Below the pieces are notes generated by a model. The model made no database searches. It saw only the letters and a list, made by a program, of their open reading frames with translations, and had not been told where the DNA came from. This document shows positions 20,807-41,782 of a stretch of DNA of 57,844 nucleotides, in pieces (position 1 is the stretch's first letter; each line of letters opens with the position of its first letter). The position numbers and the translations under genes were made by a program. Source of the stretch: Oscillatoriales cyanobacterium PMM_0008 (lineage in GTDB: Bacteria > Cyanobacteriota > Cyanobacteriia > Cyanobacteriales > Aerosakkonemataceae); the NCBI GenBank assembly GCA_949128025.1, contig CASBRD010000071.1, forward strand, positions 1 to 57,844. Direction: 5' to 3'.

Positions 20807-20928
20807 TGATGCTGTTGGCACGATCGCCCCTCTGAAGGTGGTATTGTTGAGCGTCCTTTCGGTACATTTAACTCTGATTTGCTGGCGATCGCGCTGGTGG
20901 TGGGAGTGGAGGCGCGACGGATTTTTCT

Positions 20929-23733
20929 TTATCGAGATGCAATTCTCTCCAAAATCATCCTAACATCAGCCGGATTTCTTGATATAGCCCGTTGCCAAGT
21001 ACCAAAACTGGCCTGCTGATTAACAGCTTCAATCCACTGATCCAGAAATCCCCATTTAGCTTGATCTTGGCGTGTCTGCTGTCCTTTGGTTTCTAATATC
21101 AAGAAATCTCCATTTTTGAGCCGAACAATGAAATCGGGGCGATATTTGCGAACAACACCATCAAAAATATAGAGAATCTCAAATCCAAGATGGTCATTTT
21201 TCACCCAAGCATCAACATTTTCATTTCGATCTAGTTCAAATGCTTCGCTGGCTTCCCATGTACTATCAAAAGTGCTACAATTAATGTGGGATTTTTGAGT
21301 ATATTCACAGGGTTTACCAGTGTACCAAGGACGCATATCACCTGTAGAACGGATAGGATGTTCGGAATCAAATATAGGCTCAATTTTTTCAGTGTTTTCT
21401 AAGTAAATCGCTTGCCAGATATGCTGCACTATCTTTCTCAAATTTAGGGTAATCAGAATGCGTCGCCTGATTTCATCTACACCAAATGATGGCGGCGTAA
21501 TTTTAATTAAATCTGAATGGATAACTTCTTCAACCAATCGAATTAATTTGCCTAGTAAGTATTCTCGATTACCTTTCCAACCGGGTTTCATTTCCTCAAA
21601 AATATCTATCGCAACCTCAAAGGCAATTTTTTGCATCCGCTGTTTGCGCCCTAAATCTTCTAAGTCAATTGCCCTAATTTTAGTCACATCTGGTTTGCCA
21701 TCAACAATCGGTGCTAATTCTGCCAGTGTGCTATTATCAAAGGCATCTAATTCTAAAGTCTCAACTTGACTCATATTCAGCTTCAGTTCGGGCTGATAAA
21801 TGTAATCAATGCGGACAATATTAGGAAACTTAATTTCAAACTGCTGCTTATCAGGATCTGGTTTAATTTCTGTTTTAGGTTGAGGTGGTGGGGGTGGTGT
21901 TCCTTCATCGGATTCGTGGGGAAGAAAGGTAAAGGGAACACCAAAAATATTCACATATTCTGCTTCTAATAAATTTGTTTCTGGGTTGATTTCGTAAGCA
22001 GTTCTCCGCAAACCTCGCCCTACCACTTGTTCGCAGAGAAGTTGACTAGAAAATGCTCTAATTCCCATAATGTGAGTGACTGTTTTGGCATCCCATCCTT
22101 CAGAAAGCATCCCCACTGAGATCACATTTTGAATCTGTTCCCCTGGTTTTCCAATTTGACCAACAGTATCAACCGTTTTCCTTAAATATTCTGCTTGTTC
22201 TTTCTTGGAAAGTTTGCGGATAGGTTCATCATCAGGGGTATCATCTTCGCTATCGTCTGATGTTTGGTCTTGTAATTCGCTAGTTTCTTCCTGAGATTCT
22301 GCCATTTTCATCACGTTAGAGTCTATGTGGAGAGTACGTTCTGAAATGCAAAGTTCTTCGATCTGAATTTTGTGATGATCGAAAGCATATTTAATTCTAG
22401 CCGCAGTTTCAGTACGGTTAGCAATAGAAATCATTACCGGGGGAATTTTATGGCCAGCTTCTTGCCAATCTTTAGCGGTTTCTAGCCAATCTTTGCCAAG
22501 TAAATAATAGGCATTATTCAGCAAATCTGGGAGAGATTCGTTAGGTTTAGCTTTGCGATTCACGTCATCATTAACTTCAGGATCTCGATAGAGATGGTAG
22601 AGACGAGATTTGTAATCTTTTGTGAGTTTACCATCATCACGAATCACGACGCGAGGGGTTTTGACTAAACCTGATTCAATGGCATCATTTAATCCAAAAT
22701 CACTAACAATCCAGCCAAATAAAGCTTCTTCTGAGCTTTTTTTACCAGAAGGTGCAAAGGGTGTGGCGGAGAAGTCAAAACAGGTGATGATTTTTCTAGC
22801 TTGGTGGATTCTATCAAGTCCACCTACCCATTTTGTCGCCTCGTCTAATTCTTCTTTACTAACCCCTTTAACTTTAGATTCCGCAGAAATCCGCCATGCG
22901 TGGTGCGCTTCATCATTAAGGACAACAATATTGTGAGAATTTGCCATTTCTCCTAACACTTCGCGGGCGTAAGCTTCATTACTTTTAGCACCGCGTTTAT
23001 CAACTCCTTTCCTTTTGGCAATTTGTTCCTCAGTTTCCCAATTCAGGGCGTGCCAATTGCAGATGATAACTTTACCTTGACGGAGTTTATCGAACAAACC
23101 AAGAGGAACAACATTGAAAACTTCGTAGTAGTTATTTTCGGCAGAGAGAGTGAGAACTTGCAGGCGACTTTTAACTGTTAGTCCCGGCGCAACAATAAAA
23201 ATAGCTTTAGAAAAACGGGTATCTTGGGGATAAGTAATTTTATTTAATATTTGCCATGCAATTAACATCGCCATGACGATAGTTTTCCCCGAACCTGTCG
23301 CCATTTTCGAGCAAAGACGTTTGAAGTTTCCACCATCTGAAGGAATATCAATGCCAACTTTTTCGGACGGTGGAGATTCAGTTATCCAGATTAAGGTTTC
23401 TATGGCTTCTAACTGACAGAAAAAGAAAGGATTATTGCGTTCTTCTCGGTTGTTCCAGTGTTCTAGGAGACGCTTGGTAACGCCTGTAACGCCGGGGTAT
23501 CCTTGACTACTCCAAGCTTTGACGCGGGGACGGATTTGGTTAACTAAAGGTATTTCAACGAATTTACCGGGGTCGTCGAAGGTTTTGGAGTTTTCTGAAG
23601 CAATGATATAGCCTGCGGGTCGTCTTCCTTCTGTCAGGTTGAATAGGCGAGATGTGCGATCGTAATGCCAATATTGTTTGGGTTCTTCGTAGGGTGAATT
23701 AATAATAAGTTGATCGATGGTTGTTGATGACAT
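20929..23733 (-). CDS. DEAD/DEAH-box restriction endonuclease (Res-like, BPTD_3080-type)
   Basis: 934 residues, ATG 23733. It is a superfamily-2 helicase/translocase with Walker A MATGSGKT at 144-151, DEAH at 274-277, SAT motif FSATPF at 321-326 and motif VI QVVGRGLRR. A C-terminal PD-(D/E)xK nuclease carries D867, E881 and K883 (PDFIV...LILETKG). This matches type III-like Res subunits. The matching methyltransferase is probably the gene at 26492-29122, same strand, with four small genes between. An acidic linker (SEDDTPDDEP) lies mid-protein. All catalytic motifs look intact, so it could be active. Confidence 0.88.
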   Translation of the reverse strand: MSSTTIDQLIINSPYEEPKQYWHYDRTSRLFNLTEGRRPAGYIIASENSKTFDDPGKFVEIPLVNQIRPRVKAWSSQGYPGVTGVTKRLLEHWNNREERNNPFFFCQLEAIETLIWITESPPSEKVGIDIPSDGGNFKRLCSKMATGSGKTIVMAMLIAWQILNKITYPQDTRFSKAIFIVAPGLTVKSRLQVLTLSAENNYYEVFNVVPLGLFDKLRQGKVIICNWHALNWETEEQIAKRKGVDKRGAKSNEAYAREVLGEMANSHNIVVLNDEAHHAWRISAESKVKGVSKEELDEATKWVGGLDRIHQARKIITCFDFSATPFAPSGKKSSEEALFGWIVSDFGLNDAIESGLVKTPRVVIRDDGKLTKDYKSRLYHLYRDPEVNDDVNRKAKPNESLPDLLNNAYYLLGKDWLETAKDWQEAGHKIPPVMISIANRTETAARIKYAFDHHKIQIEELCISERTLHIDSNVMKMAESQEETSELQDQTSDDSEDDTPDDEPIRKLSKKEQAEYLRKTVDTVGQIGKPGEQIQNVISVGMLSEGWDAKTVTHIMGIRAFSSQLLCEQVVGRGLRRTAYEINPETNLLEAEYVNIFGVPFTFLPHESDEGTPPPPPQPKTEIKPDPDKQQFEIKFPNIVRIDYIYQPELKLNMSQVETLELDAFDNSTLAELAPIVDGKPDVTKIRAIDLEDLGRKQRMQKIAFEVAIDIFEEMKPGWKGNREYLLGKLIRLVEEVIHSDLIKITPPSFGVDEIRRRILITLNLRKIVQHIWQAIYLENTEKIEPIFDSEHPIRSTGDMRPWYTGKPCEYTQKSHINCSTFDSTWEASEAFELDRNENVDAWVKNDHLGFEILYIFDGVVRKYRPDFIVRLKNGDFLILETKGQQTRQDQAKWGFLDQWIEAVNQQASFGTWQRAISRNPADVRMILERIASR

Positions 23734-23783
23734 ATTGTGTTATTTTGATTTGTTTATGGTTCCCAGATTAGCCATAGATTTAT

Positions 23784-24389
23784 TTACCCGCCATTGAAAA
23801 TTTGCTCCGCCGTCAAATTTAACTCTGGAAATACCCCAGACTCAATTCTTTCATTTCCCCGAAACAGCTTAATTTGATACTCACCATCTACCAATTGACA
23901 AACCGATAAAGTAGGCTGTTTAGGAGAACCAATATAACGCCTACCTCCCAAACCCAAATAATCGACAATCCAGTATTCAGGAATGCCGAAAGCTTCATAG
24001 TCGCTCATCTTATGTCCATAATCATCGCGCCAATTTGTGCTGACAACTTCAATCGCAAGAGGAATGAATGAGCCTTGAGTAATTGTTGAGGATTTTGCCC
24101 ATAAAGGCTCTAGCGCTAAAGCATCACGATTAACTGCTAAAACATCAGGCAAATAACCAGTTTCTTGTTCTGGAGATTTAACGAGGGCATTCTTGGGGAA
24201 TCGATAGGGAAGTTGCAGTCTCCGAGTTTCTAGGATTAGTTCTGTCTGCAAAAATTCAACAACTTCTTCATGTTTTCCTGTCGTCTGCATTTCAACAATA
24301 ACTCCGTTATGTAGTTCATAGCGTCCGTTTTCAGGTTTCCATTCCAAAAAATCATCAAAAGTTATTAACTTAGATATCGCTTGAATCAT
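23784..24389 (-). CDS. Uma2 family (DUF820) nuclease-like protein
   Basis: 201 residues. I start at ATG 24389 because GGAGG lies 8 bases upstream; a TTG at 24404 would place that site inside the coding region. Seen motifs: ITFDDFLEWKPENGRYELHNG, GYLPDVLAVNRDAL, PLAIEVVSTNWRDDYGHKMSDY and YWIVDYL. This is the classic Uma2 pattern with the D...E.VS..K active-site series intact (Lys in HKMSDY). Family members have an endonuclease-like fold of unproven role. It lies inside the RM island. Confidence 0.87.
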   Translation of the reverse strand: MIQAISKLITFDDFLEWKPENGRYELHNGVIVEMQTTGKHEEVVEFLQTELILETRRLQLPYRFPKNALVKSPEQETGYLPDVLAVNRDALALEPLWAKSSTITQGSFIPLAIEVVSTNWRDDYGHKMSDYEAFGIPEYWIVDYLGLGGRRYIGSPKQPTLSVCQLVDGEYQIKLFRGNERIESGVFPELNLTAEQIFNGG

Positions 24390-24449
24390 GGGAAAAACCT
24401 CCAATATTCTAATATCATATCCGGTTGATTAATTTTTGTATATGGTTGA

Positions 24450-25634
24450 TTACTCCTTATTTTCTGGGGTAATTAGTGAGTAGCTGCTTTCAAAAAGGTC
24501 AAGATATGGTTCATAACGATATAGTCTGTTGCGCTGCCAACCTGTGACTTCACATAACAAGCCAAGTTTAACAAATTGTTCTACGATTTTCCTCGCGGTT
24601 GCATAGGTACATTGTAGCTCATTTTCTACCAAACGAATATTCACAATCGGATGCTGGAAAAGTATATCTAACAAGCGCAACCCATAACTGCTACTAGAAA
24701 TTCTTTGACCAATGATTTCACGGTGTTTTTCGCGCATTTCAAGAATAGAACGGGCTGTGGCTGTTGCTGACTGGCTGACTTCAAAAATACCTTGAAGAAA
24801 AAACTTTAACCATCCTTCCCAATCTCCATGAGTGCGAATTGCCATCAGGCGATCGTAATACTCTATTTTGTGAAATTTGAGATAATGACTGAGGTATAGT
24901 AAAGGCTTTTGCAGAATACCTTGCTGACAAAGTAAAAACGTAATTAGCAATCGTCCAATCCGTCCGTTTCCATCTAAAAAGGGGTGGATTGTCTCAAATT
25001 GAGCGTGAGCTAATCCGCAATGAATAAGTACAGGTAAAGAATTGGTATCGTGCAAAAATTTCTCTAGGTTGTCGAGGGATTTGTGCATTTCTGCAACTGT
25101 TGGAGGTACGAAAGCCGCAGTAGAAAGATTACAGCCTTGAGAACCAATCCAATTCTGACTTGTCCGAAATTCTCCTGGTGTGCGATCGCTACCTCGCACA
25201 TCTTTGAGCAATTCTGCATGAATCTCTCGCAGTAAGCGCAGACAAAGGGGGAAATCTTGAAGTCGCTTTAAACCATAGTTCATGGCATTAACATAATTAA
25301 CAACTTCCCGCACATCTTTAAAGCGTTCTTGACCTTTAACATCAATTTCATATTGAAGTACGTCTTCTAGGGTGCTTTGTGTGCCTTCAATTTGAGAACT
25401 AAGAACCGCTTCCTGACGGACATACATCGCTACAAATAGGTCAGGATTGGGCAAAATAGAAGTGGCACCGTCCAGTCTGCCAAGAGCGCGATCGGCATCG
25501 GAAAGCAAGCGATTGAGCGCTTCGTCCATTTGGATGGGCGGTTCGGGGGGAAGTGGCGCTGGAATAAAGGCGCTGTATCCTTCGATTTGTTGGATGTATC
25601 GACCAGATCGCATGATTGGGTGACTGAGGGGCAT
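24450..25634 (-). CDS. Fic family AMP-transferase-like protein with C-terminal winged helix
   Basis: 394 residues, ATG 25634. The Fic core motif HPFLDGNGRIGR at 217-228 is complete, including the catalytic His. An N-terminal inhibitory motif (S/T)xxxE(G/N) is present as S79-SQI-E83-G84, so this is a class II, self-inhibited Fic enzyme. The C-terminal ~70 residues (ILFQHPIVNIRLVENELQCTYATARKIVEQF) form a winged-helix DNA-binding domain. It probably AMPylates a target when relieved. Its position inside an RM gene pair suggests a regulatory or back-up toxin role; this is inference. Confidence 0.9.
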   Translation of the reverse strand: MPLSHPIMRSGRYIQQIEGYSAFIPAPLPPEPPIQMDEALNRLLSDADRALGRLDGATSILPNPDLFVAMYVRQEAVLSSQIEGTQSTLEDVLQYEIDVKGQERFKDVREVVNYVNAMNYGLKRLQDFPLCLRLLREIHAELLKDVRGSDRTPGEFRTSQNWIGSQGCNLSTAAFVPPTVAEMHKSLDNLEKFLHDTNSLPVLIHCGLAHAQFETIHPFLDGNGRIGRLLITFLLCQQGILQKPLLYLSHYLKFHKIEYYDRLMAIRTHGDWEGWLKFFLQGIFEVSQSATATARSILEMREKHREIIGQRISSSSYGLRLLDILFQHPIVNIRLVENELQCTYATARKIVEQFVKLGLLCEVTGWQRNRLYRYEPYLDLFESSYSLITPENKE

Positions 25635-25750
25635 TCATTTGAGGTCTTGGTGTCTTATGTTAGTCCCGTGAAATAAGACGGCTGGATCTGAATCTTATTA
25701 TAGTAAAATGCTTTTTAGTATAATAAGATTGACCGAACACTTACCCGCCA

Positions 25751-26179
25751 TTAAAAATTTGCTCCGCTGTCAAAAATTAAATCTATCATCTGATTTTTAT
25801 GCTTCCGATAAACGAGAAAATCGCTATCCAATGTTAATACACAACTACCGGAAATTAACTCACTCATTCTGACTAAACAAGCATCTGCTAAAGACATCGG
25901 TACATTCTGATACCGTTTCATCAATTCTCTAATCGCTTCGCTGTCATCATTCAGTTGAAAAGGAATTGAAATGATTTTTTGACTGATTAAATTCATCACT
26001 GCCTCCTCACCTTCATAGACATCTTGCAGTAGAAAACAAGCCTCAGTTATTACCGCTTCACAAGTTAATAAAGGCGGTTCAATCTTTTTCCATTGTTCAT
26101 TTGTCCAGGGATGTAGTTTTTCTCTTTTATTAATAAATGTCACTAACACCCCTGTATCTAGTAATACGTTTCTTTTCAT
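25751..26179 (-). CDS. PIN-domain toxin (VapC-like)
   Basis: 142 residues. PIN nuclease acidic residues are in place: D8 (LLDTGVLV), E46 (ITEACFLL), D99 (MSLADACLV) and D118/D120 (LDSDF). The start ATG overlaps the antitoxin stop as ATGA (26176-26179), a tight translational coupling typical of toxin-antitoxin pairs. Such toxins cut tRNA or mRNA. It lies inside the RM island and is likely maintained by or protecting it (inference). Confidence 0.88.
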   Translation of the reverse strand: MKRNVLLDTGVLVTFINKREKLHPWTNEQWKKIEPPLLTCEAVITEACFLLQDVYEGEEAVMNLISQKIISIPFQLNDDSEAIRELMKRYQNVPMSLADACLVRMSELISGSCVLTLDSDFLVYRKHKNQMIDLIFDSGANF

Positions 26180-26427
26180 TTTTTACCCATGCCTTTTAAA
26201 TATTCTTTATTTGTCCCTAAATCACCAGGGCCAAAATCTACACATCCCGCCCACTGTTTCGCTGCTTCATAAGCAGAAATTGGTTGTTTTTCCTCTACCT
26301 GTTCCTCCTGCTTTTGGGCTTTATATCGCATAAATTCAATAAATTCTAAAACTGCATCCTGTTGTTGTACTGTTAGAGTTTCGATGTTCTCTAAAATTAC
26401 ATTTTTTTTATTGATAGCCAAAGTCAT
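26176..26427 (-). CDS. Antitoxin partner of the PIN toxin (DUF2281/VapB-like)
   Basis: 83 residues, ATG 26427. The N-terminus ENIETLTVQQQDAVLEFIEF is the DUF2281-type helical domain. The C-terminal part (YEAAKQWAGCVDFG..LGTNKEYLKG) is the toxin-binding tail seen in many cyanobacterial antitoxins. It is first in the pair and overlaps the toxin gene by four bases. Probable autorepressor. Confidence 0.82.
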   Translation of the reverse strand: MTLAINKKNVILENIETLTVQQQDAVLEFIEFMRYKAQKQEEQVEEKQPISAYEAAKQWAGCVDFGPGDLGTNKEYLKGMGKK

Positions 26428-26491
26428 AGTTAAATCCTCTTGAAATTAAAAACTTTAACCCATTATAGCACACATCCAGAAATCGGGTTTC

Positions 26492-29122
26492 TTAGGTTAA
26501 CCGAATAATCTTCAAACTTTCAATGCCTCTATCGTCCACAATCTTAACAGCAACGCGCTGATACTCTCCCATTTCAAAAGGCAAGGAAACAGTACCCTGA
26601 TAAGACTCAATTAAATCCTCATCTATTTCGGCTTTAAGATTGCGGGCTAGACGTGACCAAGCATCTTTTTCCCCTGCCATTGGGAAGAAAACCTGACGGG
26701 GGAAAACGCTTCTACCATCATAGTCAATATCTAACATCCATACGGCAATTTTTTCGACGCTGCCAGATTCAATATTTCCGGTTTTGGTATTATAATAATC
26801 GAAGCCAAAAACTTCGACTTCCCACTTACCTTGATTTTCCCCTTTATCGATGCGGCGCAGTGCAACATCGGGTTGACCCATCAGCCAGAAACTATCGTTA
26901 CTAGCGCGTTTTTTCTTGAGGTCTTCTGTTAGTAAATCGGCGTTCATTTGTGCTTTCAGAAGTGTGACTCCCGGCCAGTTAGTTTCGTCGATGTCTTTGG
27001 ATGCTTCGGGGTCAAATTGGAAGGCGGCAAAGATGATTAATTTGGGTTTGGGGACTAAAGTTTGTGCTTCTTCAAGTGCTTGGGTAACTTGCCGTTGTTC
27101 TAGGGGTGCGTGTTCTTGCCCGAAGGAAATAACGACTCGCGTGGGTTTATCGTAATTACTAGCAGCTTCTTTGACGGTATTAGCGAGATTTTCTTCCCCC
27201 TGTTCACGGGGGGACTGAGGGGGGTTAGGTTTGGTTTCGGCATCGGCATGAAGCCAACGAGTGCCTGGTAAAGGTTCGACTCGCGAGAATAAAATGTATT
27301 GTCCGTTTTTACCGCGAATCCCTGTTTTTAGCATTTCATCGCGCCATTCTGATTGTCGCAATGTTTCGCCGGAACGGGTGATTGAATTGTCAGCAACGGG
27401 GGGATTGATAATGTCATCAATGGGTTTTACTGTGGGGGCGGGAACTGCCTCAACTGTAAATGGGCCTGTGACTCTGACTTTGGATTTGTCGGGTAAAGGT
27501 TGGTCGTAGAGGGTTTCTTGGTCGGCGTATTTATTAATCGCTTGTTCTATTTGTATCGGCTTCATGCCTTCCCGGATTTCGGGGTTATTGGCGATAGATT
27601 CGAGGGTGATGTGAGGGACGGTTTTGTATTTGAAACCACTGCCTACGCCTTCCTGTGGTATTGCTAATTGGTAATAGTCAAAGGTAGCGGTCATTAACCG
27701 TTGTTTTGCTAGGGTTATTGCTACTCTTGAAGTATCGCAGGTTATCCATCTGCGTCCCCATTGTTCGGCAACATAGGCAGTCGTGCCGCTACCGCAGGTG
27801 ATGTCCAGGACTAAATCACCTGGGTCTGTTGACATTAAAAGACAGCGTTGTATGACTATTGGAGAAGTTTGAACGACATAAATTTTGTCACCAGGTCTAC
27901 CAGCTATTCCTGTATCTGTCCAACAGTTAGTAATTTCAAATAGTGGGAAATCATCTAAATATCTTATGTATCCTAGTGAATTAGAACGAGTATACAATCT
28001 TGAAGCTTTCTCAAGATTATTCATTCCTTGTTGATTAGTTTTAAATCCGCCCCAATATTGTTTATCGTTAATTTCATAAGATAAAACTGGATTGCCTTGA
28101 CTGGTTAAGTTGTCTATACGAAATACTTTTGATCCTTTCCCTAGTATAGAATAATCGTCTATTTCATCTTGAGTTATCGAACGTTTTTCGCCAGTCGATG
28201 ACATTACATATTTATATTCACCTCCACCATCCCCACCAAGTTCTTTTTTTGAAAATAGTTGTCGGTACTTAATTTTATTCTTAGACTTTCCATAGTAAAT
28301 TAAGTAATCAGAAGTTCGAGACAATAGACTTCCTCTTAATCCACTGGTTTTGGCAAAACTAATCATACTTACCAAATTTTCCCGCCCAAAAACCTCATCC
28401 ATCAAATTTCTAACTAAATGCAAATTTTCATCAGAAATCTGCACAAAAATACTACCACTTTCGGACAATAACTCCCTCGCCAATAACAATCTATCTCTTA
28501 AATAAGTCAAATAAGAATGAATCCCCAACTCCCAAGTATCCCGAAACGCTTTAATCATTTCTGGTTCTTGAGTCAAATCCTCATCTTTCCCATCTTTCAC
28601 ATCGCGCTTATTCACAAAGGGCTGAAAATTTGAACCATATTTAATCCCATAGGGCGGATCGAAATAAATCATCTGCACTTGTCCCGCCATGCCCTCTTTT
28701 TCTAACAGGGAATTCATCACTAACAGCGAGTCTCCAGCAACTAAACGATTACTCCAATTATGCTGATGCTTGTAAAACTCGATCGCCTGTCGAATGGGAG
28801 GATTTTCTTCTGGTATCTCAAACAGAGATAACTGCACACCTTCACTTTGATTCGGCTTGCGAACTGCTTCTATAATAGTGCGAGGATCGATGCGTTCGTG
28901 AACGTGCAGCGAAACAGTCGGTACTGCAAAATTAGTATGTTCTGCCTTACCCGCCCAAACTAACTGCGGATCGAGGTGCGGATCGTAGCTATAATTTTTA
29001 CGATCGCCATCGGGATCGGTTTCCGGGGTAACAAGTCCCACAGGTGGGTTATTGACTCGTTGCTTGTCTTTGTGATCGTATTGGGCGATCGGTTTTTGGT
29101 CGGGTTTCTTTTGTCTCGCCAT
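26492..29122 (-). CDS. Site-specific DNA methyltransferase (type III Mod-like, beta class)
   Basis: 876 residues, ATG 29122. Catalytic DPPYGI at 155-160 precedes the SAM-binding motif (LDITCGSGTT, 439-448), the order of beta-class N6-adenine/N4-cytosine enzymes. A variable central region (~240-420) probably reads DNA. The long C-terminal third (~500-876) has Mod-associated domains. A stretch NPPQSPREQGEE (~640-655) is encoded by a G-rich dispersed repeat in frame. It probably pairs with the endonuclease at 20929-23733 and would protect host DNA while Res cuts unmodified DNA. Confidence 0.88.
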   Translation of the reverse strand: MARQKKPDQKPIAQYDHKDKQRVNNPPVGLVTPETDPDGDRKNYSYDPHLDPQLVWAGKAEHTNFAVPTVSLHVHERIDPRTIIEAVRKPNQSEGVQLSLFEIPEENPPIRQAIEFYKHQHNWSNRLVAGDSLLVMNSLLEKEGMAGQVQMIYFDPPYGIKYGSNFQPFVNKRDVKDGKDEDLTQEPEMIKAFRDTWELGIHSYLTYLRDRLLLARELLSESGSIFVQISDENLHLVRNLMDEVFGRENLVSMISFAKTSGLRGSLLSRTSDYLIYYGKSKNKIKYRQLFSKKELGGDGGGEYKYVMSSTGEKRSITQDEIDDYSILGKGSKVFRIDNLTSQGNPVLSYEINDKQYWGGFKTNQQGMNNLEKASRLYTRSNSLGYIRYLDDFPLFEITNCWTDTGIAGRPGDKIYVVQTSPIVIQRCLLMSTDPGDLVLDITCGSGTTAYVAEQWGRRWITCDTSRVAITLAKQRLMTATFDYYQLAIPQEGVGSGFKYKTVPHITLESIANNPEIREGMKPIQIEQAINKYADQETLYDQPLPDKSKVRVTGPFTVEAVPAPTVKPIDDIINPPVADNSITRSGETLRQSEWRDEMLKTGIRGKNGQYILFSRVEPLPGTRWLHADAETKPNPPQSPREQGEENLANTVKEAASNYDKPTRVVISFGQEHAPLEQRQVTQALEEAQTLVPKPKLIIFAAFQFDPEASKDIDETNWPGVTLLKAQMNADLLTEDLKKKRASNDSFWLMGQPDVALRRIDKGENQGKWEVEVFGFDYYNTKTGNIESGSVEKIAVWMLDIDYDGRSVFPRQVFFPMAGEKDAWSRLARNLKAEIDEDLIESYQGTVSLPFEMGEYQRVAVKIVDDRGIESLKIIRLT

Positions 29123-29216
29123 CCAACTTTACCTAGCTTCAAAACCTTGAGTTTACAATTTATTTGACGCTTTTGCCGAAGTTGTTGAGGTTTTTTTGCG
29201 ATCGCACTCTACCCCC

Positions 29217-29513
29217 TCACCCTCTCACCCTCTCACGCGATCGCCCATAAATCACATCTAACCACACCGGCACAACAAACTTCCCCTCAGCCCAAGCTGC
29301 TACTACCTTCTCAACATCGAACTCTACCAGCTTAGCCGTGCCTTCCTGCAACTCTTTGACAAAAATTAACCGCTTTGGCTCTCGATCGCTCAAAACCCCC
29401 GGATACTGCTCCTTAAGCGTCTTCAGCACTTCCCGCGCCACCTCAAACGTAAAACCCGCCCACCCCGAAGCTGCTATCCCTTGCGGATAGGAATGTAGGT
29501 GCGCCCCCAGCAA
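29217..29513 (-). CDS. Hypothetical protein, possibly a gene fragment
   Basis: Up to 98 residues from a TTG at 29513; no clear ribosome site. The frame stays open a further 16 codons upstream to a TGA, reading FSGHHCGKPAPV, which looks protein-like, so the true N-terminus may be missing. The sequence has helix/strand-like content (VAREVLKTLKEQYPG, RLIFVKELQEGTAKLVEFDV) but I recognise no family. Confidence 0.35.
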   Translation of the reverse strand: MLGAHLHSYPQGIAASGWAGFTFEVAREVLKTLKEQYPGVLSDREPKRLIFVKELQEGTAKLVEFDVEKVVAAWAEGKFVVPVWLDVIYGRSRERVRG

Positions 29514-32530: not shown

Positions 32531-33589
32531 TTATGCTAAGGCGGCAACAGCTTGAGGCCAGCGTTCCATTGCTTTACCGATCGGAGCCATTTCTTGCATC
32601 AAACGATCGAATCTTTCGGGAGTGAGAGATTGAGGGCCATCAGACAAAGCTTTGGCTGGGTTGGGATGAACTTCAATCATCAGGGAATCTGCACCAGCTG
32701 CGATCGAAGCCATTGCCATTGCAGGGACGTATTCGGCGCGACCGGTGCCGTGGCTGGGGTCGATCATAATAGGCAAGTGGGAGAGACTCCGCAAGACGGG
32801 TACTGCCGATAAATCGAGCGTATTGCGTGCGTACTGGCGATCGAACGTGCGAATGCCTCGTTCGCACAAAATCACATTCTGGTTGCCAGCAGCGAGAATA
32901 TACTCAGCCGCCATCAACCAATCTTCGATCGTCGCCGCCATCCCCCGCTTCAGAAGAACCGGCTTTTCCTGCGCCCCCACTTTTTTAAGCAGAGAGAAAT
33001 TCTGCATATTGCGGGCTCCAATTTGGATTACGTCTGCATACTCTCCCAGTACTTCCAAATCTGCGGCATCCATCAATTCTGTAATAATCCCCAAACCTGT
33101 CGCTTCACGGGCCGCTGCTAGCAATTCCAACGCACTCTCACCGTGACCTTGGAAGGCGTATGGAGAAGTACGAGGCTTATACGCACCGCCACGCAGGAAC
33201 TGCGCCCCAGCTGCCTTTACCCGCCGCGCTGTTTCCACAATCATCTCCTCATTCTCAACGGAACAAGGCCCAGCAACGACTACCAGGGGATGGTGCAAAC
33301 CAATGGAAACAGGCCCGTTGGGAGTAGGAACTACTACTTCCGAAGCTTCGCCGTGGCGGTACTCCAGGCTAGCTCGTTTAAACGGCTGTTCCACCCGCAG
33401 AACTTGCTCGATCCAGGGGCTAATTTCCTGCATTTGCAGCGGGTCTAAGTGAGCCGTATCGCCGACTACACCAATCACCACTTTATGCTTACCAACAATT
33501 TTTTCTGGCGTCAGTCCCCAGGTGGAGAGTTCTTCGGTAAGACGGGTAATCTCGACTTCTGGGGAGCCGATTTTCATGACCACGATCAT
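32531..33589 (-). CDS. aroF: 3-deoxy-7-phosphoheptulonate synthase (DAHP synthase, AroF type)
   Basis: 352 residues, ATG 33589 (a second ATG four codons later is also possible). The enzyme catalyses the first step of aromatic amino acid synthesis from PEP and erythrose-4-phosphate. An N-terminal ferredoxin-like/ACT-type domain (~1-90) precedes the barrel. Signature segments: GPCSVENEEMI, GGAYKPRTSPYAFQG, GARNMQNFSLL, KRGMAATIEDWL, ERGIRTF and DPSHGTGRAEYVPAMA with metal-ligand residues. This is the beta-type I enzyme usual in cyanobacteria. Confidence 0.94.
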   Translation of the reverse strand: MIVVMKIGSPEVEITRLTEELSTWGLTPEKIVGKHKVVIGVVGDTAHLDPLQMQEISPWIEQVLRVEQPFKRASLEYRHGEASEVVVPTPNGPVSIGLHHPLVVVAGPCSVENEEMIVETARRVKAAGAQFLRGGAYKPRTSPYAFQGHGESALELLAAAREATGLGIITELMDAADLEVLGEYADVIQIGARNMQNFSLLKKVGAQEKPVLLKRGMAATIEDWLMAAEYILAAGNQNVILCERGIRTFDRQYARNTLDLSAVPVLRSLSHLPIMIDPSHGTGRAEYVPAMAMASIAAGADSLMIEVHPNPAKALSDGPQSLTPERFDRLMQEMAPIGKAMERWPQAVAALA

Positions 33590-33734
33590 ATTGAAAATCC
33601 TTTGTTAAGTTCTTTGCGTGCAGAATGGCTAAAAGCTAACCTATAGGTTCTCATATCAGCCTGGATGGAGCCAACGTGCGTCTTGCACTTTTGGCATAGG
33701 CAATATGCCTAGCGTCATTGTGGCACCAGGAATA

Positions 33735-34232
33735 TTAATTTTTTTGCTTACTCGATCGCCAAGCTGCCGTCATCCGCCCCCAGTTGGTGGTAAATTGTTC
33801 CCACCCTAATTTGCTCCCTGATGTTTCTTCATCCCAGGATGCAGAGAGGACGCCATAGGTCAATCCTAAAGCACCCAGACCGAAAAAGCCGATGCTAACC
33901 AAGACAACTACCGGGTTGGGAAGGTTGAACCAGGCATGACTTACCACAACGTAGCTGATAATAAACGTGGCAATCCCCAAAAAAGTGGGAATACCAGAGA
34001 AAAGTGCCATCCGCGAGATCATGCGCTGGCTGACTGCTTCTGGAATGGCCATTGCTTTTTGGGAAACCGATCGCGGTTTATTATCCTTTTTATCCGCAAC
34101 GGACGTTACGGGTTGGTTTTTAGCTGGCTTTTTGGCATTTTTCTTCGGTTCAAAGGGTAAGCGTTCCTTAGTTTGGGAAGACTCCTTTGGAGTGTCGTCA
34201 GCTTTGCTTTTGGGTTGAGGTTCGGAAGCCAT
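33735..34232 (-). CDS. PAM68 family photosystem assembly protein (DUF3464)
   Basis: 165 residues, ATG 34232. A lysine-rich soluble N-terminus (~1-65: FEPKKNAKKPAKNQP) is followed by two membrane spans (GIPTFLGIATFIISYVVVSH and VVVLVSIGFFGLGALGLTYG) and a short tail. This is the PAM68 layout; the plant homologue assists photosystem II assembly. The gene starts 5 bases after rpsO, a conserved cyanobacterial pairing, so it is probably co-transcribed with rpsO. Confidence 0.9.
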   Translation of the reverse strand: MASEPQPKSKADDTPKESSQTKERLPFEPKKNAKKPAKNQPVTSVADKKDNKPRSVSQKAMAIPEAVSQRMISRMALFSGIPTFLGIATFIISYVVVSHAWFNLPNPVVVLVSIGFFGLGALGLTYGVLSASWDEETSGSKLGWEQFTTNWGRMTAAWRSSKQKN

Positions 34233-34237
34233 AACCT

Positions 34238-34507
34238 TTAACCGCGAATGCCAAGGCGACCGATTAACCCTTGATAGCGCTCTGGATTTTCCTTGGAAAT
34301 AAAGGACAGCAGGCGCTTGCGTTGACCAATCAGCTTCAACAAACCCCGCCGGGAAGCGTGGTCTTTGTGATTGGCTTTGAGGTGTTCGCTCAGGCGGTTA
34401 ATGCGTTCCGTCAGTACGGCAATTTGCACATCTGCCGAACCAGTATCTGTCTCATGGATTTGATACTGGTCAATGATCTCGTGCTTTCGCTCTTGCGTAA
34501 GGGTCAT
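34238..34507 (-). CDS. rpsO: 30S ribosomal protein S15
   Basis: 89 residues, exactly the family length. Conserved segments: [43 protein letters not shown] and the end of the protein. Binds 16S rRNA in the small subunit platform. First gene of an rpsO-PAM68 pair. ATG 34507. Confidence 0.98.
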
Positions 34508-34809
34508 AGTTTCAGTGTGTGTACGTTAATTCAGCAGCTTTTTATCATACCATAGCCGACTCGGAGTATGTGTTGGGGTCGATCGCATCTACCAATTCAA
34601 TCGGTTCCCCAGACCAAACTTTCAGAGTTGTGAGACTTTATAGCAAAGTGCAAGGTCAGCCGTAAAAACACAGTCGCTTCCTTCCGGGGAATAGCTCTAT
34701 ACTGTCCTAACATAAATGACTGTGGCTGTAATACAAAAAGTCCCTAAACTCTAACTTTAGGGACTTTTACGCTGAACAAATATTAATAAGTAACTCGAAT
34801 CAGTTGCTC
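34508..34809. other. Intergenic region with terminator, no gene seen
   Basis: It holds the rpsO upstream sequence and the terminator hairpin at 34736-34768. No ORF of interest is seen in 302 bases. Confidence 0.5.
34736..34768. terminator. Terminator downstream of the cyanophycinase fragment
   Basis: AAAAGTCCCTAAA and TTTAGGGACTTTT make a perfect 13-base stem with a 7-base loop, flanked by T-rich sequence. It lies 42 bases after the stop of the minus-strand cphB fragment. Confidence 0.8.
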
Positions 34810-35169
34810 TTAAGCGGCTTTCTGAGCGGTTTTCTCAAGGATAGGTTTTCGTGTTTTTAGATTAAACCGATATCCATGTGGAAGAATATGCAGCTTGGCT
34901 CCACAAATTGCCAAAGCCTCATCCTTCAAGAGTTCGTCCACATTGATATGGATAATCTCTGCTACATCGACAACGGTGACAGCGCCCTCACCCACCACTT
35001 GAAACTCGTCGCCCTGCACTACAACAGCTGTATCTTCATCAATACCGAATCCCAAAACGGCTGGCTGCTGTGCCAATGCTGAAAGTAAGCGTCCCAAACG
35101 TCCGCGCTGTGAGAAATGCTGATCGATTACTATCCCCGGCAGGTAGCCCATACCCGGCCCCATTTCCAC
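34810..35169 (-). pseudogene. cphB: C-terminal part of cyanophycinase (5'-truncated cphB)
   Basis: 119 codons matching the C-terminal half of cyanophycinase: GPGMGYLPGIVIDQHFSQRG, then LLSALAQQPAVLGFGIDEDT and the GEGAVTVVDV strand, with the DQHF His region. Full-length CphB (~270 residues) hydrolyses cyanophycin with a Ser nucleophile in a G-SAG motif in its N-terminal half. That half is missing: the frame upstream runs only four codons to a TAG (35182-35184). The first ~54 bases overlap the cphA2 start on the opposite strand. It is therefore probably inactive. The 3' terminator remains. Confidence 0.8.
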
Positions 35170-36975
35170 AGCGTCAACGCGCTAGTATTTGATTTCGCCC
35201 TCACCGGGCATTTGTCGCCTCGGCCCATCGAGGAATATATCTCGGCTATTAGCGATCGCTATCCGCACCTGCGCGATGAAACATCCGAATCCTATGCCCA
35301 TCTATTTGCCCGAACAGTATCGGAAGTGGGAAAACTCGACATGGGTTTGCACCTCAACCGCTTGAATTTGAAACAACATCCCAATTATTTCACAATAGCC
35401 GCTCAATCAGTTCATTTCCGTACCAGCCGAGCCGTAGTTTATTGCGTTTGGGACTGGTTTGAAGCTATTACTCAAGACGAAGATTTTGAATTAGACGATC
35501 GCATCAGCAGGCTTCAGGACACATTCCGATACAGCGTTTATGGTGGCCCGACAGTCTACGCCTTATTACGCACAGCCCAAGAGAAAAAAATTCCCGCCTT
35601 TTATTTGTGGGACGAAGGGTTAATGCAGTACGGATATGGGAAAAAACTAATTCGCGGCGTAGCAACAACATTTGATTGCGATAGCCATTTAGATTCCGAT
35701 TTTACCACCCGCAAAGATGACTGCAAAGCTTTCTTGAGTACGCTGGGCTTCCCTGTACCAAAGGGTGCTGTTGTTGTCTCCCTTACGGAAGCCAAAGCGG
35801 TAGCAGAAAGAATTGGCTACCCGGTGGCAGTTAAACCTGTAGCGGGTCACAAAGGCATTGGCGTGACAGCTGATGTACAAAACCCGCAAGAATTAGAATT
35901 TGCCTTTAGCAGGGCACTCAAAGGGATTCCAGAAGAACAATCGATCGCAATAATCGTTGAGAAAAGCATCAAGGGCGCAGATTTCCGCCTGTTATGCGTC
36001 AACGGCAGATTTGTTGCCGCTACCGAACGCCGTCCAGCATCAGTTACTGGTGACGGTTATTCAACCATTGCTGAATTAATCAAGCGGGAAAATCGCAAAC
36101 CCGCACGTTTGGACACACCAACCTCTGCCATGAGTAAGATTCAGTCCGACGACGCAATGGAAATGTTCTTATCCGAACAAAGCTTATCATTGAACAGCGT
36201 AATTGAAACAGGACGCATCGTTTATCTTCGCAAAGTTGCCAATCTCTCAGCGGGAGGTTTGAGCATAGATGCAACGCCCACTGTTCACCCAGACAATATC
36301 ATTTTGGCGCAAGACATTGCACAGCATTTTCGACTCACTTGCCTGGGTATCGACGCGATTTCTCCAACTCTCTCTCAATCTTGGAAATCCGGCAACTTTG
36401 GCATTCTCGAAATAAATGCCGCACCGGGCATTTTTATGCACCTTAACCCCGCTGTTGGTGAAAGCGTTGATGTGCCGTCGCATATTCTGGAAACCTTCTT
36501 TAAGTCTGGGGCAGATGCGAGAATACCAACGATCGCCTTCAACCGAATTTCAGTTCAGGAACTTCAGGAAACTATTGACCATATTCTTTTGAAACACCCC
36601 GATTGGACTATAGGTGCTGTTTGTCATCAAGCAGTTTGCGTCAACCGTTCGGAGAAGATTTTGAATAAGGATTACAACACCAATGTCCAAAATTTGTTAC
36701 GCAATCCCAAGCTCGATTTGCTAATTGCCGAGTATCCAGAAGATGTGCTGGAGAAAGATGGAATGTTTTACCAAGGCAGCAACATTGTAGTCCTGGATAA
36801 TCCGACCGAAACCGAAATGATGCTGACGCGGGATCTCCTCGAAGATTCAACCGTAGTTGTTAAGGAAGGAAATAACATCTCAATCCGGCATAAGGGTTTG
36901 ATAGAACAGTATACCCTTGGAGAAAACGAACCATTTACGCGGGTTTATCTGAAAGAAATCGGAACGATACTGTAA
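35116..36975 (+). CDS. cphA2: CphA2-type cyanophycin synthetase (ATP-grasp, lacking the Mur-ligase domain)
   Basis: 619 residues. The N-terminal domain (~15-200) resembles CphA's N domain. An ATP-grasp core follows (~200-460: KDDCKAFLSTLGFPVPKG, VAVKPVAGHKGIGVT, FRLLCVNGRFVAATERRPAS). The C-terminal ~150 residues are a short remnant without the Mur-ligase P loop. CphA1 enzymes are ~880 residues; this shorter form fits CphA2, reported to re-polymerise beta-Asp-Arg dipeptides in nitrogen-fixing cyanobacteria. ATG 35116 follows an in-frame TGA two codons upstream, so no longer start exists, and the start lies inside the antisense cphB fragment. No clear ribosome site is seen. Confidence 0.85.
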   Translation: MLIDYYPRQVAHTRPHFHSVNALVFDFALTGHLSPRPIEEYISAISDRYPHLRDETSESYAHLFARTVSEVGKLDMGLHLNRLNLKQHPNYFTIAAQSVHFRTSRAVVYCVWDWFEAITQDEDFELDDRISRLQDTFRYSVYGGPTVYALLRTAQEKKIPAFYLWDEGLMQYGYGKKLIRGVATTFDCDSHLDSDFTTRKDDCKAFLSTLGFPVPKGAVVVSLTEAKAVAERIGYPVAVKPVAGHKGIGVTADVQNPQELEFAFSRALKGIPEEQSIAIIVEKSIKGADFRLLCVNGRFVAATERRPASVTGDGYSTIAELIKRENRKPARLDTPTSAMSKIQSDDAMEMFLSEQSLSLNSVIETGRIVYLRKVANLSAGGLSIDATPTVHPDNIILAQDIAQHFRLTCLGIDAISPTLSQSWKSGNFGILEINAAPGIFMHLNPAVGESVDVPSHILETFFKSGADARIPTIAFNRISVQELQETIDHILLKHPDWTIGAVCHQAVCVNRSEKILNKDYNTNVQNLLRNPKLDLLIAEYPEDVLEKDGMFYQGSNIVVLDNPTETEMMLTRDLLEDSTVVVKEGNNISIRHKGLIEQYTLGENEPFTRVYLKEIGTIL

Positions 36976-37020
36976 TACCAAATTCGGGTTTCTTACCCGT
37001 TTAATTTTTGGCCTAAACAT

Positions 37021-37128
37021 TGTAGAGACGTTTCATGAAACGTCTCTACAGTCATTTCTTTGTAGGTTGGGTTGAGCGCGAGCGAAACCCAACGCATTTG
37101 TTGGGTTTCGTACCTCAACCCACCTACT
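37021..37128. repeat. Palindromes: TGTAGAGACGTTTCA hairpin and GTTGGGTTTCG-type repeat
   Basis: 37021-37050 is a perfect 30-base palindrome (TGTAGAGACGTTTCA and complement). 37062-37128 contains GTAGGTTGGGTTGAGC with GCGAAACCCAACGC, then TTGGGTTTCGTACCTCAACC, the class also seen at 47332-47487 and 56904-56975. No gene. Confidence 0.75.
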
Positions 37129-37136
37129 CTAATGCC

Positions 37137-37169
37137 AAAAACCCGGTTTCTTTAAGAAACCGGGTTTTT
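37137..37169. terminator. Palindromic AAACCCGGTTTC terminator between cphA2 and the GH13 gene
   Basis: Arms AAAAACCCGGTTTCTT and AAGAAACCGGGTTTTT flank one base. It sits six bases beyond the minus-strand GH13 stop and ~160 bases after cphA2, so it can end both. Same repeat family as 3532-3564. Confidence 0.8.
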
Positions 37170-37174
37170 CCAAA

Positions 37175-38926
37175 TTATTGCCAGACAAATACCTTTGCTT
37201 CGTACTCCGCCAGGTCAATCATTATTTGACCGCTGCCAGCTTCCACATCGTAATCGTAAGTCCATTCGTGCCATGTGCCATCCGAAGGGAAGTTTGGAAC
37301 GGTGTAACCAGCTAAATAGTTGTCTGAAAAATTAGCGACGACGACAACGCGAGAACCTTCATCATTCCAGCGGGTGTATGCTAATACCTTGGCCTCTTCA
37401 TTTTCATGGAAAAAATCAATATTCTCAGTGTAAAGAGCGTGATTGTTTTTACGCAGGTTAATCAAGCCTTTGTAGTATTCAAAGAAACCGCGATTTAGGT
37501 CATTGCTTAGCAGCGCCCACTCAATTTTTGTTGGCTCGATTGTTTTAGGTTTGTACTCGCCAAACTCTTGTCCCATCCAAAGCATTGGCACACCGACAGA
37601 TGTCATCAATATGGCCGCTCCCAACTTGGCACGTTTAAAAGCTTCGCCATCAAAAATGGTGCGATTTGCCAATTCCACCATGACGCGATTTTGGTCGTGG
37701 TTGGTCAGGTAATTGATTACATTAGTAGCACCCATGAAGCCTTGTCGCTTGCAGTCGATCGCATCTTTGAGGCGCTCTAAATCAAACGTATCCCCGCAGA
37801 TATGTTCGATCAGACAGAAACGGTAACTGTCGTGCCAGCAACCATCCATCGGCCCGTCGAAATTGGTGATACTGGTAGTTTCCGGGATGTGTTCGGCAAT
37901 ACTGTAAAACGGCTTCGGCCCAGCCGTATTTTTGGCTTCTTCCACAATCCAGTGCATGAAGTCGTAGTTGGCAATTTGCCGCGCTGCGTCGAAGCGAATG
38001 CCGTCAATGTGATATTCCCGAACCCAGAAACGCACCGTTTCGCCGATAAATTTCCACGCAGGTTTTACTTCTAGCTTTTCGTCGTAATGTTCGTAATTAA
38101 ACTCTGGCCCCCAGTTATTATCAGGGTCGCGGGGAGAGTGGTAATACCAATAATCGTGGTCAATTTGGGTAAGAGGACAAGATGCTTCCGAATGATTATA
38201 AATCCCGTCCATGATGATGCGAATTCCACGAGCATGGCACTCATCAATCAAATGCTTTAATTCGTCCGTTGTGCCGTAACTTGTTTCGGTGGCAAAGAAA
38301 TAACGCGGGTTATAACCCCAACTATAATCGCCCGGATATTCTTTGACAGGCATCAATTCAATGGCGTTGATACCAAGTTCGCAGAGATAATCTAACTTTT
38401 CTACAACGTGCTTGTATTGACCGCGAACGTAGCGATCGGGTTCGCCGCCGGAGAAGTCGGCAACGTGAAGTTCGTAGATAACTAATTCGCGATCGGCAGG
38501 TAGCGGCTTGTCGTCGTGTTGCCAAATATATGTATCGACAACTCGTTTGCCGTCTTTAATTGTTACGGTACCGACTCCTTTGCTCTCATCAACATTTGTT
38601 GCATAAGGATCGATGATGTCTACCCATTCATCTGGTTCTTTAAACCAACTTTTAGATTGAATGCGGATTTTATATTCATAAATTCCATCTTCTAATTCTA
38701 CTTGGGTGCGGAAATAACCATCCTCACCTTTTTCCATCGGTATTTCTTTCCAATCAGAAAAAGTCCCGATTAAAGCGGCTCCTTCGTTATAGGGTGCAAA
38801 TAAATTAAATTCAATCAGACTAGCCTTATGAGTTTTTGTGCTTGTCTTATGAGTTTTTTGGTCAGAATCAGTTTTTGTGCTTGTCTTATCTGTTTTTTGA
38901 GAAGAATCAGTTTTTGTGCTTGCCAT
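37175..38926 (-). CDS. Glycoside hydrolase family 13 (alpha-amylase type) with N-terminal CBM48-like domain
   Basis: 583 residues, ATG 38926. Residues ~5-34 are a KTD/KTH/KTS repeat tail (see repeat entry). ~36-135 is a CBM48/isoamylase-N-like domain (GTFSDWKEIPM). The (beta/alpha)8 catalytic domain follows, with region I DGIYNH 240-245, nucleophile D313 (RFDAAR), acid/base E345 (SIAEHI) and region IV NHD 409-411. The catalytic set is complete, so it should cleave or transfer alpha-1,4/1,6-glucans; exact specificity (branching, amylase) is unclear. No signal peptide, so it is cytoplasmic and likely linked to glycogen. Confidence 0.88.
   Translation of the reverse strand: MASTKTDSSQKTDKTSTKTDSDQKTHKTSTKTHKASLIEFNLFAPYNEGAALIGTFSDWKEIPMEKGEDGYFRTQVELEDGIYEYKIRIQSKSWFKEPDEWVDIIDPYATNVDESKGVGTVTIKDGKRVVDTYIWQHDDKPLPADRELVIYELHVADFSGGEPDRYVRGQYKHVVEKLDYLCELGINAIELMPVKEYPGDYSWGYNPRYFFATETSYGTTDELKHLIDECHARGIRIIMDGIYNHSEASCPLTQIDHDYWYYHSPRDPDNNWGPEFNYEHYDEKLEVKPAWKFIGETVRFWVREYHIDGIRFDAARQIANYDFMHWIVEEAKNTAGPKPFYSIAEHIPETTSITNFDGPMDGCWHDSYRFCLIEHICGDTFDLERLKDAIDCKRQGFMGATNVINYLTNHDQNRVMVELANRTIFDGEAFKRAKLGAAILMTSVGVPMLWMGQEFGEYKPKTIEPTKIEWALLSNDLNRGFFEYYKGLINLRKNNHALYTENIDFFHENEEAKVLAYTRWNDEGSRVVVVANFSDNYLAGYTVPNFPSDGTWHEWTYDYDVEAGSGQIMIDLAEYEAKVFVWQ
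38818..38926. repeat. Tandem coding repeat at 5' end of the GH13 gene
   Basis: Units of the type GTTTTTGTGCTTGTCTTAT with spacers recur three times in the first ~105 bases of coding sequence, giving repeated TKTDS.QKT.KTSTKT peptides. Length is likely to vary between strains. Confidence 0.75.
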
Positions 38927-40609: not shown

Positions 40610-40772
40610 AGCAACATTATACTGAAATGCTTTGTGAATTAAAAATAAACCTTACGCCTGTTCAAGGTGTAGTTAAGAGTTTTGAAGAGCAGGAAATTTT
40701 TCATTCAAAACTCTTATCTCATAATCAATGAAATCCTTGAATTAGCTGTGTAAGTTCTAAATATCCAAATCG

Positions 40773-40801
40773 AAGCAGAAAAACAGAAGGGTTTTCTGCT
40801 T
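40773..40801. terminator. Hairpin with T-run downstream of the TPR gene
   Basis: AAGCAGAAAA and TTTTCTGCTT pair over 10 bases around a 9-base loop, with seven T on the plus strand after the stem. It lies 16 bases after the minus-strand TPR gene stop; the T-run favours plus-strand reading, so its effective direction is uncertain. Confidence 0.55.
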
Positions 40802-40816
40802 TTTTTAATTCCTTAT

Positions 40817-41782
40817 TCAAGTTCTGGTTTGTTGAATGGTTCTGATTGCTTCCTGTGTAGATTGAAGAGCTTGTGTATTTCCTTGTTCTCGAAAAAGATC
40901 GGCGGCTTTTTGGAAATCCCTAAGCGCTGCTTGGGTATTTTTGAGGCTGTAGTAAGTAACACCGCGATTGAAGAAAGCTTCAGCAAAGTCGGGCCTGATC
41001 TGGATAGCGCGAGCGTAATCCTGAAGCGCTTCTTGATTTTTTTGCAGTTTGTTGTAGGCAATACCTCGGTTGTAGTAAGCTTTATCATCATTTGGGTCAA
41101 GGCGTACTGCCTGGTTGTAATCCTCTATTGCTGCCTGATGTTGTTTAAGGTCATCGCGAGCGTTACCCCGATTGATATACGCTTTGGCATTATTAGGATC
41201 GAGCCGAATTGCTTCGGTGCTGTCATCGATCGCACCTTGGAAATCCTTTAAGAAATAGCGAGCATAACCCCGGTTAACGTAGGCTTGTGTGAGTTCGGGA
41301 TTGAGCTTTATAGCCGCATTGTAATCCTCGATCGCACCTTTATAGTCGCCTTGCTTAGCCTTTTCTATACCCCGGTTGTACAAGTCCACAGCACTCATTT
41401 CTGTTCCGGGATTGGTTCCTGGGGTTGACTCTGTGCTGGGAGTTGGCGTAGTAGTGGGAGTAGTTGGCGGGGTTGACTCTGTGTTGTTTGGTTGTGACTC
41501 ACCACCGGCTGGGGTTGTTGGTTGAGCCTGGTTTGGTGTTGATTCTGTATCGGCTGGAGTAGACTGTGTACTGGGGGCTGGTGTTCTTGACCCATCTTGG
41601 GTTGGCTTGGGCCGATCGTTAGTTGGCGTTGACTCGTTGCTGCGAGTTGGCTTTGACTGACCCTCGGTTGGCGTTGGTGACTGGGACTGGCTTGGCTTTG
41701 ACTGAGCCTGAAGAACAGGTGCGATGCTACCCAGTGTAGTGGCGATGCCTAAAATTGCGATCGTTCGGTGAATACGGTTCAT
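40817..41782 (-). CDS. Exported TPR-repeat protein with Pro/Thr/Ser-rich linker
   Basis: 321 residues, ATG 41782. Signal peptide (TIAILGIATTLGSIAPVLQA), a low-complexity linker of P/T/S/Q/E residues (~27-130), then tetratricopeptide repeats (~130-305) in units such as YNRGIEKAKQGDYKGAIEDY, YINRGNARDDL and YYNRGIAYNKL. Likely an extracytoplasmic scaffold with unknown partner. The linker's Thr-Pro runs are repetitive at DNA level. Confidence 0.85.
   Translation of the reverse strand: MNRIHRTIAILGIATTLGSIAPVLQAQSKPSQSQSPTPTEGQSKPTRSNESTPTNDRPKPTQDGSRTPAPSTQSTPADTESTPNQAQPTTPAGGESQPNNTESTPPTTPTTTPTPSTESTPGTNPGTEMSAVDLYNRGIEKAKQGDYKGAIEDYNAAIKLNPELTQAYVNRGYARYFLKDFQGAIDDSTEAIRLDPNNAKAYINRGNARDDLKQHQAAIEDYNQAVRLDPNDDKAYYNRGIAYNKLQKNQEALQDYARAIQIRPDFAEAFFNRGVTYYSLKNTQAALRDFQKAADLFREQGNTQALQSTQEAIRTIQQTRT

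Follow-up and report, generated by a model that had tools for sequence, protein, structure and literature searches.

A lineage-specific deletion that most likely inactivated both members of a conserved divergent cphB2/cphA2 pair in a cyanobacterium

Introduction

In the DNA stretch analysed here, the open reading frame of a cyanophycin synthetase 2 gene (cphA2) starts inside a cyanophycinase 2 gene (cphB2) that lies on the opposite strand and has kept only its C-terminal part. This raises the question of how the two genes came to meet in this way, and whether either of them can still function. The original prediction was that a rearrangement had joined the two genes head to head exactly where an intact cphA2 begins, and that cphA2 must now be driven from within cphB sequence.

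The window, the whole 57,844-nucleotide stretch, is contig C71 of the source genome (G000). This draft of 5.83 Mb comprises 469 contigs and is 98.75% complete. The source genome is a third Argonema genome, beside the two same-genus relatives used for comparison, G001 and G002. G002 is Argonema antarcticum A004/B2, and G001 probably corresponds to A. galeatum A003/A1. G006 served as the outgroup in the comparison of intact orthologues. The other comparison sets were 28 named loci and 20 other whole genomes with CphA2, with 3 genomes common to both. The features discussed below are as follows.

34736..34768, minus strand: possible intrinsic terminator 3' of cphB2, a 13-bp inverted repeat with A/T-rich ends, read from the sequence
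34810..35181, minus strand: cphB2 remnant, codons 153-275 with the stop codon, from a cyanophycinase 2 gene of 275 codons (G001 alignment, TIGR02069, codon arithmetic)
35116..35178, plus strand: spurious stretch at the 5' end of the cphA2 ORF, comprising 21 antisense codons of cphB2 from ATG 35116 (the same DNA lies within the intact cphB2 of G001)
35179..35181: deletion junction, GCG, a 3-bp microhomology common to both ancestral ends, with the same breakpoints against G001 and G002
35179..36975, plus strand: cphA2 remnant, codons 39-636 with the stop codon, from a cyanophycin synthetase 2 gene of 636 codons (G001 alignment, codon arithmetic)

Results

Comparison of the locus with its relatives

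The locus was compared with relatives, as the original prediction had proposed, and the intact divergent genes were present there. Both G001 and G002 carried cphB2 (275 aa, with GTSAG) and cphA2 (636 aa); in G001 the start codons of the two head-to-head genes were 969 bp apart. Intact orthologues, as expected where a pseudogene arises by deletion, were thus found in both sisters, and also in the outgroup G006. On the left, window positions 33500-35181 were collinear with G001 at 97.7% identity, which ended at 35181; on the right, 35179-38000 were collinear at 94.4% DNA identity. G001 had extra DNA between the two points where the window flanks meet.

Relative to G001, 1,542 bp were absent from the window, and relative to G002 8,440 bp, because the G002 spacer holds three additional genes. 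The 1,542 bp consisted of cphB2 codons 1-152, the spacer, cphA2 codons 1-38 and the shared codon 39, so that alignment and codon arithmetic located the fusion at 35179-35181, between codon 153 of cphB2 and codon 39 of cphA2. The cphA2 Shine-Dalgarno and the whole spacer with an NtcA-like site were removed too. The comparison shows that one deletion on the lineage of the source genome took the facing 5' parts of the divergent genes and everything in between: 152 cphB2 codons, the spacer with its control sites, the cphA2 Shine-Dalgarno and the first 38 cphA2 codons. The GCG overlap would fit illegitimate end joining or replication slippage. As about 5% of random joins would share 3 bp, it hints at these processes without proving them.

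Of the 28 named loci, 20 had cphB2 and cphA2 divergent and one had them in tandem; in the other 7, cphB2 was outside the flank. It was full length in all 21 loci where it stood beside cphA2, and a short cphB shared by relatives, which would have spoken against the original prediction, was thus not seen there. The 20 other CphA2 genomes had the two genes divergent on one contig (12), in tandem (1) or on different contigs (6), and one had no close cphB2. Because divergence is widespread in both sets, the head-to-head order is older than the deletion. The predicted rearrangement held in part: the 5' half of cphB2 has been lost together with the divergent control region, but from a locus already arranged head to head, not by a joining of genes.

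The cphB2 remnant

The minus-strand ORF at 34810-35169 (119 aa) matched positions 148-250 of 250 in TIGR02069, the C-terminal part only. As predicted, the C-terminal half with DQHF was retained and the N-terminal half with the Ser motif was gone. GTSAG, which carries the nucleophile, was missing from the remnant; in G001 CphB2 it starts at residue 130, inside the lost codons 1-152. Since the nucleophile half is lost, cphB2 would be dead. A 3' terminator had also been proposed, and the inverted repeat at 34736-34768 could serve as one, although an automatic scan of the region did not list it.

The cphA2 remnant

The plus-strand ORF at 35116-36975 (619 aa) was CphA2-like, with 97% protein identity from residue 19. 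Matches of relatives began at ORF residue 8-22, not at residue 1, and residues 1-21 were an antisense reading of cphB2. ATG 35116 indeed lies in antisense cphB2, two codons after an in-frame stop (TGA 35110-35112, then GAA), as had been noted. cphA2 does not begin at the junction, however, and is not intact, having lost its own first 38 codons and its Shine-Dalgarno. The remnant frame was open across 598 codons. An upstream ATG ahead of any stop was found in 29% of random frames, so the open 5' extension is no evidence of design.

The N-terminus is a regular part of CphA2. In each of the 28 named loci its alignment began no later than residue 8. In all 20 other whole genomes the best copy was aligned from residue 12 at the latest; a second copy in G034 (51% identity) was aligned only from residue 20. 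Conservation was scored on 26 of the 28 named loci, leaving out L104, where a contig end cuts the gene, and L105, which has a broken frame. Residues 1-38 contained 8 invariant and 8 near-invariant columns (42% conserved, vs 49% in the remainder of the protein; 56% in residues 12-38 alone). The window copy had the ATP-grasp core of cyanophycin synthetase without a full Mur-ligase domain, as a functional CphA2 does, but lacked the conserved N-domain stretch (about residues 11-38) that such an enzyme also has, residues 1-38 being absent.

GGAG stands before the native start of cphA2, with a Shine-Dalgarno pairing energy of -6.4 in G001 and G002 and -6.6 in G006. At ATG 35116 the energy was -1.5, vs a median of -1.9 at random window sites. 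In a scan of 34500-35500, no promoter-like site was found on the plus strand upstream of 35116; the promoter scans returned counts at or under the shuffled expectation and decide nothing alone. That cphA2 is driven from within cphB thus does not follow, and the simpler reading would be that it is no longer properly expressed.

In a model of the intact A. antarcticum CphA2, a strand was predicted at residues 20-28, within the lost stretch. Overall this model was weak (mean pLDDT 63.2, pTM 0.37, TM-score 0.39 to 8FXI), with confidence confined to the N domain. The truncated 619-aa protein scored higher overall (mean pLDDT 73.6 vs 63.2), with its new residues 1-20 predicted below pLDDT 50. To our knowledge, AlphaFold cannot demonstrate a loss of stability, and the models therefore count as minor support.

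The deletion deprived cphA2 of its promoter and ribosome-binding site, and its N domain of the first conserved segment. For this reason, we consider that cphA2, too, is most likely a young pseudogene, and that the functions of both cphB2 and cphA2 were most likely lost. An automatic caller would label the 619-aa ORF as a complete CphA2 starting at 35116, an annotation corrected here.

Control sequences and gene content of the spacer

An NtcA-like site, GTATAAATATCTAC, was located about 85 bp upstream of cphB2 in G001 and G002 and is lost from the window. The pattern GTA-N8-TAC, which we take to be the NtcA consensus, was present at similar positions upstream of cphB2 in half of the divergent spacers, 14 of 28 (7 of 8 from whole genomes and 7 of 20 from named loci), and the Nostoc loci among the spacers examined were without it. 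The site is thus conserved, and putative as a functional site. Two blocks recurred in 36 regions upstream of cphB2: one of the TCTACC type in 21 (0.4 in shuffles), and [CTG]ATG.TTTA in 20 (1.3 in shuffles). These blocks point to a conserved promoter for cphB2 that in part resembles an NtcA site.

The A. antarcticum spacer holds a cassette between cphB2 and cphA2 (L064:2856-10047) coding a dynamin-like GTPase of 884 aa, an Hsp70-like ATPase of 1132 aa and a 377-aa protein without a Pfam match. In G006, a three-gene dynamin/Hsp70 cassette with 64-75% identity was found on the other side of cphB2 (C68:30731-37895), and all that the G001 spacer (L063) keeps is the final ~96 codons of the gene for the 377-aa protein. 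The window had no match to the cassette, nor did any PADLOC model match it. The cassette seems to move or to have been lost repeatedly.

Other variation was seen at L023 (contig C112 of G034), where two adjacent CphA2-like genes lie on one strand, with 58% and 51% identity to the query, and no close cphB2 was found. Within the window, 40633-41408 has about 7 kb fewer than G001 and G002, and the flanking genes are also close together in G006; 20820-29225 is a variable region of about 8.4 kb, vs 4.8 kb of unaligned DNA in G002.

Selection on the branch

Changes in cphB2 and cphA2 numbered 15 N and 16 S on the branch of the source genome, 11 and 26 on that of G001, and 30 and 68 on that of G002; the counts are rough, as site-by-site polarisation splits multi-hit codons. 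Twelve neighbouring genes with presumptive labels, a set from which a short ribbon-helix gene with 0 N and 2 S was left out, had 80 N and 139 S on the first branch, and the two sets did not differ significantly (Fisher P = 0.24). The ratio of 15:16 was far under the neutral 3.4:1, rejecting neutral drift over the whole branch (P = 0.0005), and a rough fit gave a neutral share of 17% (1-50%). A recent loss and a gene in continued use would be equally compatible with this pattern. The branch test was dropped as proof of decay, relaxation not being significant. Because the cphA2 frame is open and N:S is neither neutral-like nor unlike that of the neighbours, the loss looks young.

Related genes elsewhere in the genome

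The proposed search for another full cphB was made with the lost cphB2 half. Its sole match in the source genome was cphB1, at 37% identity, and no second copy was found; cphB1 is distinct from cphB2, with 37-40% identity between them. Open frames of cphB1 (300 aa) and cphA1 (902 aa) are paired on contig C413, with the same lengths in G001 and G002. CphA2 family enzymes polymerise beta-Asp-Arg, according to PMC9262961. The cphB2-cphA2 pair would make sense as a degrade-and-rebuild unit, and the source genome would now be without the CphA2 route for re-polymerising beta-Asp-Arg, depending on the cphB1-cphA1 pair.

Of the 21 genomes with CphA2, 7 had a nifH above the curated cut-off, as did 8 of the 19 without CphA2; none of the three Argonema genomes had one. 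Among these genomes, CphA2 showed no tie to nitrogen fixation.

Discussion

Taken together, the best explanation, in which we have considerable confidence, is that a single deletion left cphB2 dead and cphA2 most likely a young pseudogene. It competes with the view that cphA2 still works from a new start, either ATG 35116, with 21 residues of antisense cphB2 replacing the native N-terminus, or ATG 35341. The open 619-aa frame, the constrained N:S and an in-frame ATG just past a stop agree with such a restart, and a better Shine-Dalgarno-like pairing (-5.4) precedes 35341. Yet a start there would leave out 75 residues of the ORF and with them roughly half the N domain. A start at 35116 would do without the native Shine-Dalgarno and the conserved N-terminal stretch, put residues of low predicted confidence in their place, follow no promoter-like site found on that strand, and use an ATG of a kind common by chance. 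We regard a restart as unlikely, and hold it quite unlikely that cphA2 works from the antisense of its dead neighbour, with a new N-terminus and no longer subject to nitrogen control or tied to its cyanophycinase partner.

The junction might also have arisen as an artefact of the library or of assembly, or represent a single variant within a mixed population, given that the genome is a draft, possibly metagenome-derived, in 469 contigs and that the two ends have just 3 bp in common, an overlap also seen in some random joins (about 5%). We give this only a small chance. The junction lies deep within a 57.8-kb contig with both flanks collinear, and the missing DNA was found on no other contig: its 47 matches in the source genome (40 of 321 candidates scored) were all simple heptamer repeats at query positions 578-674. 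Repeat-mediated assembly errors need far more than 3 bp. A rearrangement that brought formerly separate cphB and cphA2 together would explain why their present ends meet head to head, but that order, found in G001, G002, G006 and most named loci, is ancestral, which makes such a joining scarcely credible.

A single deletion in an ancestral pair thus remains the preferred explanation. The sequence comparison points to a lineage-specific deletion that truncated both members of a conserved divergent pair, an ordinary gene loss. No paper on a truncated or pseudogene cphA2 was found in a search covering the literature on CphA2 outside subscription. The locus would offer a natural case in which cphB2 and cphA2 were lost together, where two other Argonema species keep both. 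As no Argonema nifH passes the curated cut-off, a comparison of these strains could address the role of the pair outside nitrogen fixation.

Microhomology-bounded deletions that produce pseudogenes are a generally known kind of event. The present case resembles them in its clean ends, 3-bp overlap and unrelated deleted content, and differs in that both ends lie inside the coding sequences of two divergent genes at once. The intact G001 CphB2 is like the cyanophycinase 7UQV (255 bits) and Synechocystis CphB 3EN0 (162.5 bits), whereas the window copy differs from TIGR02069 and these structures in having codons 153-275 alone, without the Ser motif. The intact G001 CphA2 belongs to the same family as Stanieria CphA2 8FXH/8FXI (aligned over 1-635 with 8FXH, 962 bits), was aligned with Gloeothece citriformis CphA2 7TA5 over 17-632 (754 bits), and is without the long C-terminal Mur-ligase region of CphA1 (636 vs 902 aa). 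The window copy differs from 8FXH, 8FXI and 7TA5 in that residues 1-38 are replaced by 21 unrelated residues.
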